Source: a virus. From it: a stretch of 44,843 nt of DNA. This document shows positions 112 through 43,582 of this stretch, one piece after another (the stretch's first letter is position 1; the number at the start of each line of letters is the position of its first letter). Location of the stretch: positions 1-44,843 of the IMG/VR virus record IMGVR_UViG_3300002835_000349. The stretch is one strand, 5' to 3'. The translations under genes and the position numbers were made by a program. The notes under the pieces were generated by a model that was not told the DNA's origin, made no database searches, and saw nothing but the letters and a program-made list of their open reading frames with translations.

Positions 112-118
112 TATTTAT
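112..118 (+). promoter_or_regulatory. Late-promoter-like TATTTAT motif, tail tube gene
   Basis: TATTTAT followed by an A-rich stretch, ending 35 nt before the tail tube start codon. It is one of nine such motifs placed upstream of structural or unknown genes in this window. Promoter function is inferred from position and recurrence only. Confidence 0.35.
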
Positions 119-153
119 AATAAACGATAAAAGTAAAAAAATAAGAAAACACA

Positions 154-642
154 ATGGCGGATTTATTAATGAAAATGCCGATTCCTTATGAACCTAAAAG
201 ACAGAATAGGTTTATTTTAAGGTTTCCTTCATCTTTGGGTATCAATGAATGGTTCGTAGAATCTACTGCCAGACCTCACATTACGATTAACCCAACAGAA
301 ATACAATTTCTAAACACCTCAACATATGTTGCAGGCAGATTTAACTGGCAAACAATTCCAGTTACATTCCGTGACCCAATCGGTCCTTCTGCAGCACAAG
401 CTTTAATGGAGTGGGTACGTTTACACGCAGAATCTGTAACAGGCCGTATGGGATATGCTGCAGGTTATAAAAAAGATATTGACCTAGAAATGCTCGACCC
501 AACGGGTGTTGTTGTAGAAAAGTGGATTCTGTACGGAACATTCCTTACAGATGTAAACTTCAATTCGCTTAACTATTCTCAAGATGGCTTGGCTACAATT
601 TCAGCAACCTTAAGAATGGACCGCTGTGTATTGATTTACTAA
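154..642 (+). CDS. Tail tube protein (T4 gp19-like)
   Basis: This 162-aa protein resembles the T4 gp19 family, whose hexameric rings stack into the inner tube through which DNA passes. Length matches T4 gp19 (about 163 aa). Visible family traits are the N-terminal region with basic residues and RFILRFPSSLG, the central WQTIPVTFRDPIGPSAAQALMEW stretch (residues about 65-88), and a C-terminal strand that carries asymmetric contacts in the family. The start is the ATG after an A-rich leader with no Shine-Dalgarno. It is followed by a strong terminator, which would let this high-copy protein be made in excess of the downstream chaperone and tape measure. The sheath gene would be expected just upstream, outside the window. 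Confidence 0.88.
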   Translation: MADLLMKMPIPYEPKRQNRFILRFPSSLGINEWFVESTARPHITINPTEIQFLNTSTYVAGRFNWQTIPVTFRDPIGPSAAQALMEWVRLHAESVTGRMGYAAGYKKDIDLEMLDPTGVVVEKWILYGTFLTDVNFNSLNYSQDGLATISATLRMDRCVLIY

Positions 643-675
643 ATTATTTATTTATTTTTTTTACTGAGTATATTT

Positions 676-706
676 AACCGTAGAGCCGAACTCTACGGTT
701 TTTTTT
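676..706 (+). terminator. Intrinsic terminator after tail tube gene
   Basis: A 10-bp perfect stem (AACCGTAGAG / CTCTACGGTT) with a 5-nt CCGAA loop is followed by a continuous run of T to position 706. The next gene starts only 3 nt after the T run, so this is also the leader of that gene. Confidence 0.9.
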
Positions 707-709
707 ATT

Positions 710-42108: not shown

Positions 42109-42410
42109 CACAAATTAGAATTTCTTTAGTTTCTGGAAACGTTCCGATAAGTGTATTTGTTGCTGACATATATGGTAACAATAGAGTTTTAATTGGAACC
42201 ATTAGCAATACTGGAGCTATTCCTCCTGACGCAAATTTTTATCCTCCAGCGTTATTTGATACTGCTCCGCAAATTATGCTCATCCTTTTAGATAATGAGG
42301 GTTGTGAAAAATTTGAAATTTTAGATTGTACGTTCGGTTGTGCTTTTGCAATTTCTGTTGAATCTGTTGACTGTACATTTACCATGACTGTTACAGAATT
42401 CACGCCATAA
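42105..42410 (+). CDS. Small fibre-associated protein of unknown function (101 aa)
   Basis: The start is taken as ATG 42105, overlapping the preceding TGA (ATGA), rather than an upstream TTG at 42096. The 101-aa product is beta-rich, with four cysteines in its second half (EGCEKFEILDCTFGC and VDCTF), echoing the Cys-rich repeat ends of the fibre before it. No family recognised. Translational coupling to the SprB-repeat gene suggests an accessory part of, or chaperone for, that fibre. Confidence 0.6.
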   Translation: MTQIRISLVSGNVPISVFVADIYGNNRVLIGTISNTGAIPPDANFYPPALFDTAPQIMLILLDNEGCEKFEILDCTFGCAFAISVESVDCTFTMTVTEFTP

Positions 42411-42538
42411 CATAAAAATATTTCCTTCGAAAAACAAACCAAAAAAATTCTAGCAGATTTAAATCGGTAATGAAATGAAATTCGATAGTAAAGGGGGGGT
42501 AGAAAACTTAGGAACTTATGTATTTATTATAGAAAATC
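42411..42538 (+). other. Leader region with G7 tract
   Basis: This 128-nt gap contains no gene. It holds a G7 run at 42493-42499, a palindromic GATTTAAATC and, near its end, a TATTTAT motif. No good terminator hairpin was found. Confidence 0.5.
42521..42527 (+). promoter_or_regulatory. Late-promoter-like TATTTAT motif, 335-aa fibre gene
   Basis: TATTTAT followed by TATAGAAAA, ending 11 nt before the start codon. Confidence 0.42.
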
Positions 42539-43546
42539 ATGGCATTACAAAATATAATCGTTGTCAATACTGCTCCCGGTTGTAACAATTCGGTTGTACA
42601 ACAAATTACTGTTGTAGATGTAGAGTGCTTTTTAGTTAGAATACCCCCTGAGAGTGATGCCGTAGGTCCCTTTGACGTCTATGTAGACTCCTTGAGCTCC
42701 ACACCCTACTTTACGTCTCAAACCAGACTACAAATGATAGCTGGTGTTGTAATATGTTTGGGAACTCAAACACCAACTCCAACACCAACCCCAACTGCCA
42801 CACCTGGAGCAGTAACCCTAACACCAACACCAACTAGTACCCTAACACCAACGCCAACGCCATCAAACGATGTAATACCTTCACCAACCCCAACAACCAC
42901 CACTACACCAACACCAACACCAACTCAAGAAGCAAACTACTTTGCATATTTGTTCCCAGAACCGTTGGACGCAACTTCAGGTACCAATTTAGGTCAATAT
43001 ATGTTTGACAATGGTGCGACCTGGTTTGGTTATTATAACACTGGAACTCCAGGAACAACCGATTATTCTAGTAATTTAAATACTTACGCTCAATATCCTG
43101 GTTGGAGTGGTGGCGTAGATGAATTTATTACACCAGTAACCTCCTTAACCTCTCTAATAAGACAACCAGCTGGTTCTGGTACTGATAGCTTTGGATGTCC
43201 ACAAAATCAATATACATTCGGTACAATTAGAGTTACTACCTCTCAGGTAAATGTCAATGAACAATACTATTATAGTATCTGGATTCCTTTAGCTGGCGTT
43301 GGTGGTAGTATGACGAATACAACTGTAGACATTACATCTGGTTCAGCTTGCGGTGACAATATTTTATCTGACGGTATTCCTGACCCAACATTGGCTGGAA
43401 CAAATGTTATAGTCACCGCCGGTGCTGCTATACCCGCTGGAACTTATAGGGTATTATGGCTTGGTTCATTCGCGACACAACCGTCAGCCGTACCACCTCC
43501 ACCATTATCATCAAGTTTATTCTTCAAAGGTGACACAAAATACTAA
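42539..43546 (+). CDS. Tail fibre-type protein with long Thr-Pro linker (335 aa)
   Basis: Three parts: an N-terminal beta domain (residues 1-75) with two cysteines, a (T-P)n linker from about 78 to 133 interrupted by short spacers, and a C-terminal globular domain of about 200 aa rich in Tyr, Trp and Gly. The C-terminal part includes NEQYYYSIWIPLAGVGG and PAGTYRVLWLGSF and ends in SLFFKGDTKY; it may be a binding domain, but I do not recognise it. Thr-Pro linkers also occur in the SprB-repeat fibre, suggesting related appendages. It has its own TATTTAT motif. Confidence 0.65.
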   Translation: MALQNIIVVNTAPGCNNSVVQQITVVDVECFLVRIPPESDAVGPFDVYVDSLSSTPYFTSQTRLQMIAGVVICLGTQTPTPTPTPTATPGAVTLTPTPTSTLTPTPTPSNDVIPSPTPTTTTTPTPTPTQEANYFAYLFPEPLDATSGTNLGQYMFDNGATWFGYYNTGTPGTTDYSSNLNTYAQYPGWSGGVDEFITPVTSLTSLIRQPAGSGTDSFGCPQNQYTFGTIRVTTSQVNVNEQYYYSIWIPLAGVGGSMTNTTVDITSGSACGDNILSDGIPDPTLAGTNVIVTAGAAIPAGTYRVLWLGSFATQPSAVPPPPLSSSLFFKGDTKY

Positions 43547-43575
43547 AAAAAAATCATAAACGGTAAAAGACAACC

Positions 43576-43582
43576 TATTTAT
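43576..43582 (+). promoter_or_regulatory. Late-promoter-like TATTTAT motif, collagen-like fibre gene
   Basis: TATTTAT ends 14 nt before the start codon and overlaps TATAAATA at 43580-43587, the exact T4 late-promoter octamer. Either element could be the functional one. Confidence 0.45.

Follow-up and report, generated by a model that had tools for sequence, protein, structure and literature searches.

TATTTAT, a likely late promoter core of T4-like phages of Bacteroidetes

The window analyzed here is a 44,843-base linear fragment from IMG/VR (record IMGVR_UViG_3300002835_000349) that belongs to a T4-like myovirus, has a GC content of approximately 35%, and has its genes on the plus strand. 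Its genes, named here by the position of their start codon, include virion genes such as those of the tail tube (154), hub (710), baseplate (24610 and 25086), and a tail fiber (43597) as well as replication genes for SSB, a UvsX-like protein, exonuclease, helicase, NrdB, and NrdA. The subject of our study is the short sequence TATTTAT, for which the original prediction had proposed a role as phage late promoter upstream of virion genes only. All nine copies on which this proposal rested are present at the claimed places and distances, though three further intergenic copies (at 645, 649, and 1537) had been omitted. In the following list, the gap in nucleotides (nt) runs from the motif end to the start codon and the offset from the motif start to the ATG, fractions give the distinct upstream regions of orthologs with the motif, and G003 is a related contig of 150 kb.

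112..118, plus strand: TATTTAT before tail tube gene 154 (gap 35, offset 42; 41/42)
645..655, plus strand: two overlapping TATTTAT copies (645 and 649), ahead of a hairpin preceding hub gene 710 (within 60 nt in 1/30)
1537..1543, plus strand: second intergenic TATTTAT, 88 nt before gene 1625
1602..1608, plus strand: TATTTAT before gene 1625 (gap 16, offset 23; 6/6)
3364..3370, plus strand: TATTTAT before gene 3386 (gap 15, offset 22; 24/24)
15343..15349, plus strand: TATTTAT before small gene 15365 (gap 15, offset 22; 17/17)
24598..24604, plus strand: TATTTAT before gp25-like baseplate gene 24610, predicted to be leaderless (gap 5, offset 12; 34/34, 32 of them at -11 or -12)
26994..27000, plus strand: TATTTAT before gene 27015 (gap 14, offset 21; 24/24)
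35672..35678, plus strand: TATTTAT before gene 35699 (gap 20, offset 27; 14/15)
42521..42527, plus strand: TATTTAT before gene 42539 (gap 11, offset 18; motif at -17 in the G003 ortholog)
43576..43582, plus strand: TATTTAT before tail fiber gene 43597, overlapping a TATAAATA (gap 14, offset 21; -24 in the G003 ortholog)

All but one of the nine genes downstream had been called tail genes, and family matches bear this out for 154, 24610, and 43597; genes 1625, 3386, 27015, 35699, and 42539 have no PHROG match and can be assigned to the tail by position only.

As the original prediction had anticipated, single copies of so A/T-rich a motif are likely by chance, and it is the segregation by gene class that carries the signal. 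The window holds 19 copies on the plus strand and 10 on the minus strand, and this total of 29 (20.7 expected) was reached by 5 of 100 shuffles and is not significant, so that the claim rests on location and strand. Twelve of the 19 plus-strand copies fall into just 1262 intergenic bases where dinucleotide shuffles predict 1.08, a count reached by none of 5000 shuffles (maximum 6), whereas the minus strand has 2 intergenic copies among its 10 (1.5 expected). Where the gap before a gene measures 15 nt or more, the motif lies within 60 nt upstream of 8/10 late but 0/6 early genes (Fisher p 0.0035), and the difference persists when all genes of the window are counted (late 8/18, early 0/8; p 0.028). 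The starts of the replication genes are thus free of the motif, as claimed. The two late exceptions with a gap of at least 15 nt are gene 39625 and hub gene 710, whose nearest copies are around 55 to 65 nt off. The segregation therefore stands, with transcription units rather than single genes as its units, but the restriction to virion genes only does not: seven plus-strand copies lie inside genes, and the motif has many non-virion or unknown carriers among relatives.

Using baseplate gene 25086 as query, we matched at least 598 relatives and took 80 related IMG/VR loci. In the upstream regions of 325 genes from these loci, CTATTTA (89 occurrences, 6.9 expected) and TATTTAT (152, with 21 expected) rank first and second among all 7-mers, and the reverse complement ATAAATA stays below expectation (7 versus 14); all 80 loci are centered on one gene, so orthologous upstream regions repeat within this count. 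Four more viral scans with sigma-like proteins, tail tube, and helicase brought the number of loci examined gene by gene to 398 (at least 600 matches for each of the baseplate, tail tube, helicase, and sigma-like queries), and upstream regions were counted as distinct when at least 9 of their 60 positions differed. For orthologs of genes 154, 1625, 3386, 15365, 24610, 27015, and 35699, 160 of the 162 distinct upstream regions keep the motif, a count that leaves out late genes 8756, 33728, 36607, 39625, 42096, 42539, and 43597, for which no ortholog with an aligned start was available. Early-gene orthologs, by comparison, have it in 8 of 147 cases (SSB 6/27, gene 17237 0/9, UvsX-like 1/28, exonuclease 0/2, gene 19569 0/24, helicase 1/29, NrdB 0/16, NrdA 0/12). 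Equal frequency at early genes, which had been named as one observation that would speak against a late promoter, is therefore not what the relatives show. Late genes inside operons also lack the motif, with 2/94 overall (710 1/30, 25086 0/25, 32080 1/19, 34599 0/20), as does the unclear gene 15594 (0/17); the single distinct upstream region for gene 8443 has it (1/1).

Larger genomes give the same picture, and the enrichment thus survives composition correction in the window, in related loci, and in whole genomes. We analyzed G003, a 317 kb contig (G001), the cultured Flavobacterium phage immuto (MW353175), which infects Flavobacterium sp. LMO8, and phage Mel-JY01 (PP395634.1); the open reading frame (ORF) calls used for these counts, those of the window included, are our own, and the lists of late and early genes for immuto and Mel-JY01 were made by us from record annotation. 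Intergenic copies occur predominantly in sense orientation (sense/antisense: G003 34/4, G001 94/35, immuto 35/13, Mel-JY01 24/6, window 10/1). Among upstream 7-mers, TATTTAT ranks first in the window and in 3 of 5 other genomes (G003, 33 versus 4.3 expected; G001, 82 versus 14.1; Mel-JY01, 19 versus 3.4), and it ranks fifth in immuto (30 versus 5.2). In G003, 35 of 132 genes on both strands have a copy facing them within 60 nt, among them homologs of sheath, tube, baseplate, portal, protease, scaffold-like, and head-completion genes, and in immuto it precedes the genes for terminase, portal, sheath, tube, hub, tape measure, and others. Carriers are more frequent among late than early genes in both immuto (9/21 versus 3/25, p 0.02) and Mel-JY01 (5/11 versus 0/16, p 0.006). 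Immuto (L081-L084) additionally shows a second enriched upstream motif around TATTTAGGTAT (TTTAGGT, 16 versus 0.9), which is perhaps its early promoter.

The distance between motif and start codon points to where transcription would begin. For the 134 intergenic copies of G001, ATG follows at offset 11 in 18 cases and at offset 12 in 19, with 0 to 2 each at offsets 8 to 10 and 13 to 15, and a second, broad peak lies at offsets 20 to 23; among 87 intragenic copies, 6 have ATG at offset 11 and 2 at offset 12. Over nine records, some of which are near copies of one another, TATTTAT-N4-ATG occurs 137 times (14 backward) and TATTTAT-N5-ATG 99 times (16 backward), and the peak at offsets 11 to 12 was not seen in Mel-JY01. 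At 126 sites with an ATG offset of at least 17, taken as leadered, A occupies positions +11, +12, and +13 in 74, 75, and 69% of cases. An ATG at 11 to 13 in one class and a peak of A at the same positions in the other both agree with that A being the transcription start, in which case the transcripts of the first class would be leaderless. We consider it quite likely that this sharp class of sites produces leaderless late mRNAs, a feature new here. In G003, leaderless spacing is found at 1 of 14 motif-bearing genes with late or structural homologs but at 10 of 19 others (Fisher p 0.009; excluding helicase and the ortholog of 15365). On another contig (G007, locus L143), 12 minus-strand TATTTAT-N5-ATG sites lie within approximately 18 kb (around 196-215 kb), as if each successive gene had its own leaderless promoter.

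A candidate reader protein is available as well. The original prediction had suggested looking for a gp55-like sigma gene elsewhere, and one is encoded in all four larger genomes with enrichment, recognizable by weak profile matches to the T4 gp55 family phrog_234 (E 6e-4 in G003, 0.004 in G001, 0.008 in immuto) and by its predicted fold. In immuto, this candidate is gp153, encoded at 78174-78872. A profile built from the clade (A2) finds this protein in 7 of 8 records, though not in T4. The AlphaFold2 model, based on a 36-sequence alignment (mean pLDDT 74), aligns to T4 gp55 in the open complex (7d7c_F) with Z 10.4 over 109 residues at 4.0 A, and nearly all other listed structural matches are sigma factors, many of them sigma region 2 chains. 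The model is thus predicted to have a sigma region 2 fold as in region 2 of T4 gp55, and this uniform identity of the matches appears to be a stronger point than the Z score. The C-terminal 97 residues, predicted to form four helices, are an extra domain compared to T4 gp55; modeled alone, they match SigA region 4 (Z 5.4 and 5.3) behind an unrelated chain (Z 6.6), and Foldseek found nothing significant for them. By eye, alignment A1 shows no clear counterpart of the T4 tail, the short hydrophobic-acidic segment that binds the clamp, in the proteins of the clade, whose last 90 residues or so are helical. The gp45 clamp family phrog_223 matched only T4 in the 5 records searched, which a divergent clamp could explain. 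The family phrog_12791 matched only T4 in 8 records. The neighbors of the G003 sigma gene gave no gp46 or gp47 match, and an ORF adjoining PolB in Mel-JY01 that we tried as candidate clamp has no Pfam match.

Other genes of these phages seem to use promoters of the host type, for which the Bacteroidetes primary consensus is TTTG / TAnnTTTG (PMC6847099). The SSB gene of the window has such a promoter and, as had been stated, one distinct from TATTTAT:

16282..16313, plus strand: host-type promoter of SSB gene 16339 (TTTG at 16282-16285, 20 nt, TATATTTT at 16306-16313)

The final base of TATATTTT departs from TAnnTTTG, and relatives have TATATTTG. Searching the strict pattern TTG-N17-23-TAnnTTTG gave sense/antisense/reversed-control counts of 28/13/1 in G001, 5/2/0 in G003, 22/1/0 in Mel-JY01, 0/3/0 in immuto, and 0/0/0 in the window. 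Few genes with a host-type promoter also have TATTTAT (G001 4/23, G003 0/5, Mel-JY01 0/18), and host-type promoters probably mark a separate gene set, the early class. Mel-JY01 (L281-L283, L085) is recorded as a Microcystis phage yet has 22 sense versus 1 antisense Bacteroidetes-type promoters, and its true host may be a member of the Bacteroidetes within the culture.

From its placement and conservation, we conclude that TATTTAT is almost certainly a promoter and very probably one of the late class. The reading that we consider likely is that it forms the -10-like core of the late promoter in a large clade of T4-like Bacteroidetes phages, many of them jumbo phages, and is read by a gp55-like sigma, with the assignment of that particular protein as the reader being reasonably likely. 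Early transcription would then start from host-type promoters (TTTG / TAnnTTTG), before the phage sigma directs host RNA polymerase to TATTTAT, with no conserved -35 element. Transcription would begin at an A located 11 to 13 nt downstream of the first T of the motif; in one class of sites, this A would be the first base of the start codon and the mRNA leaderless, and elsewhere a short A-rich leader would follow. A more far-reaching idea, which we regard as speculative, is a dedicated late program in which a diverged sigma of the gp55 type, which may act without a T4-type clamp coactivator, starts transcription at TATTTAT, one class of late mRNAs is leaderless, a phage S21 protein retunes host ribosomes, and the presence of a leader tunes dose.

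Several observations weigh against the likely reading. Some carriers are not virion genes, namely the three early ones of immuto (groES, phoH, and an unnamed gene after polA), the helicase gene of G003, and 6 of the 27 SSB upstream regions, some of which have the motif as a variant -7 box. The 484 kb phage LR756508.1 has no enrichment in 142 kb (5 sense and 5 antisense copies) though it encodes a gp55-like gene near baseplate genes (L280, L451, L452), so that protein and motif are not strictly linked. The window itself has no sigma gene. Similarity to gp55 is weak (hmmscan E 0.014, 0.043, and 0.5; genome profile search 6e-4 to 0.008), a VIA-align Z of around 10 is below approximately 13, the level under which the tool advises caution because such scores can be common for helical models, and searches of PDB sequences with the sigma profiles returned no sigma factor. 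Immuto lends no support to host-type early promoters (0 sense, 3 antisense). Finally, G001 also encodes a full sigma-70-type protein (L093:1078-1875, around 277 kb) as a possible reader there.

These points bear on the competing explanations. The one that survives best, though unlikely in our view, is that host polymerase reads TATTTAT with a primary or alternative host sigma and no phage sigma is involved. The motif does share TA..T with the -7 box TAnnTTTG (PMC6847099) and host-type promoters occur in the same phages, yet it lacks the TTTG of that box as well as a -33 element, the genes with host-type promoters are largely a different set, and a phage sigma-like gene is conserved across the clade. 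That a different phage sigma or a phage polymerase is the reader seems quite improbable: the 265-aa protein of G001, with sigma regions 1.2, 2, and 4 over curated cut-offs, would be a candidate, but none of the other 7 records (T4 included) has a Sigma70_r2 match over the cut-off although G003, immuto, and Mel-JY01 are enriched for the motif. A multisubunit phage RNA polymerase was not found in 6 records searched for an Rpb2 domain; the search for a T7-type RNA polymerase matched nothing in any control genome and is thus uninformative. Very improbable is an element acting in RNA, in translation initiation or mRNA processing. The fixed 4 to 5 nt between motif and ATG at one class of sites resembles the spacing of ribosome-binding sites, but other sites lie 17 to 45 nt upstream, late genes inside operons lack the motif, unlike what a translation signal would require, and the peak of A at +11 to +13 is also present at the leadered sites. 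A mere by-product of A/T-rich DNA, suggested by intergenic regions of 23% GC and a raw count within chance, has a practically negligible chance: it is ruled out by the dinucleotide shuffles, by the bias to one strand and the depletion of the reverse complement, by the fixed positions at which the motif is conserved in many contigs, and by the peaks in spacing.

Two other features of the window are worth recording, the first being a hairpin:

676..700, plus strand: terminator-like hairpin (AACCGTAGAG / CTCTACGGTT, then a T-run) directly 5' of hub gene 710

It follows the tail tube gene and ends a few nt ahead of the hub start codon. Among 53 distinct relatives (loci L286-L365 searched), 48 have a perfect stem of at least 6 bp before the 710 ortholog, 46 of these ending 6 to 11 nt before the ATG, and the stem shows paired changes across relatives. 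It may lower expression of the hub relative to the tube. Second, the small ribonucleotide reductase subunit of NrdB type (21502-22782) has an N-terminal ATP-cone (PF03477, 5.5e-21). The G003 genes at the nrd position share just 24% and 21% identity with nrdA and nrdB of the window, respectively, and this low identity suggests replacement.

A late promoter of this kind would give a readable signal for environmental phages that are very common yet little studied. TATTTAT would allow assigning genes to transcription units and probable timing from their DNA, would place transcription starts with a precision of one or two bases, and draws attention to hypothetical genes that may encode a late sigma. 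It would also represent the T4 late promoter plan with a changed core and raises the prospect that late mRNAs are leaderless in phages of hosts in which such transcripts are rare (5.5% in F. psychrophilum; PMC9723704). We found no report of TATTTAT as a phage late promoter in the accessible text of open-licence PubMed Central literature.

The closest parallel is T4 itself, where the late promoter TATAAATA is read with gp55, gp33, and gp45 (PMC2988020, PMC7892883). Both systems have a lone -10-like element without conserved -35 ahead of virion genes, and the clade encodes a gp55-like protein of the sigma region 2 type; in the larger genomes, information content upstream of the motif forms no clear peak except at the base next to it, and expectation maximization started from the motif retains aTATTTAT in both G001 and G003. 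The sequence TATTTATA agrees with TATAAATA at 6 of 8 positions, but the two central bases are TT here and AA in T4. Spacing differs as well, with TATAAATA 22 to 36 nt before the gene in the 70-120 kb region of T4 and TATTTAT at 11 to 13 and approximately 17 to 45 nt. The T4 octamer in its own orientation is ruled out as the element, since ATAAATA is not enriched; the original prediction had rightly kept the two apart, even though one copy (43576) overlaps TATAAATA. In the T4 control region, TATAAATA occurs 9 times in sense and 6 times in antisense, so that the sense/antisense test is itself weak there. With the T4 consensus test failed, we do not file the element as a T4 late promoter, though it would work like one. 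The jumbo enterobacterial phage CBB is similar in that it is reported to have a gp55-like sigma without gp33 or gp45 homologs and a late motif before structural genes, but that motif is described as resembling T4 TATAAATA (PMC5259590). The Bacteroidetes primary promoter (PMC6847099, PMC9723704) occurs in the same phages before other genes and differs from TATTTAT by its -7 TAnnTTTG and -33 TTTG boxes.

In its gene layout, the clade corresponds to the bS21 phages described from Bacteroidetes of freshwater (PMC9723584). These are reported to carry an S21 gene within the terminase/portal/protease/capsid region but on the opposite strand, and the same arrangement is seen in G003, where an S21-like gene at 118315-118500 lies on the plus strand among minus-strand genes (PF01165, 8e-6, 25.9 bits, marginally short of the cut-off of 27); the window does not extend over this region. 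Genome sizes are compatible, too, with up to 331 kbp reported there and contigs of 317 and 321 kb here. Near-motifs precede the ATG of the S21 genes themselves, TATTTAA by 13 nt in G003 (L181:18315-18500) and TATTTGT by 12 nt in G001 (L269). The word "promoter" is absent from the bS21 paper, which describes structural genes of these related phages as highly expressed together and whose RNA mapping groups the capsid gene with its upstream gene and the protease gene with its downstream gene. In G003, TATTTAT stands at the protease gene and at the scaffold-like gene before capsid and is missing from the gene after protease and from the capsid gene, which amounts to the same division into units.

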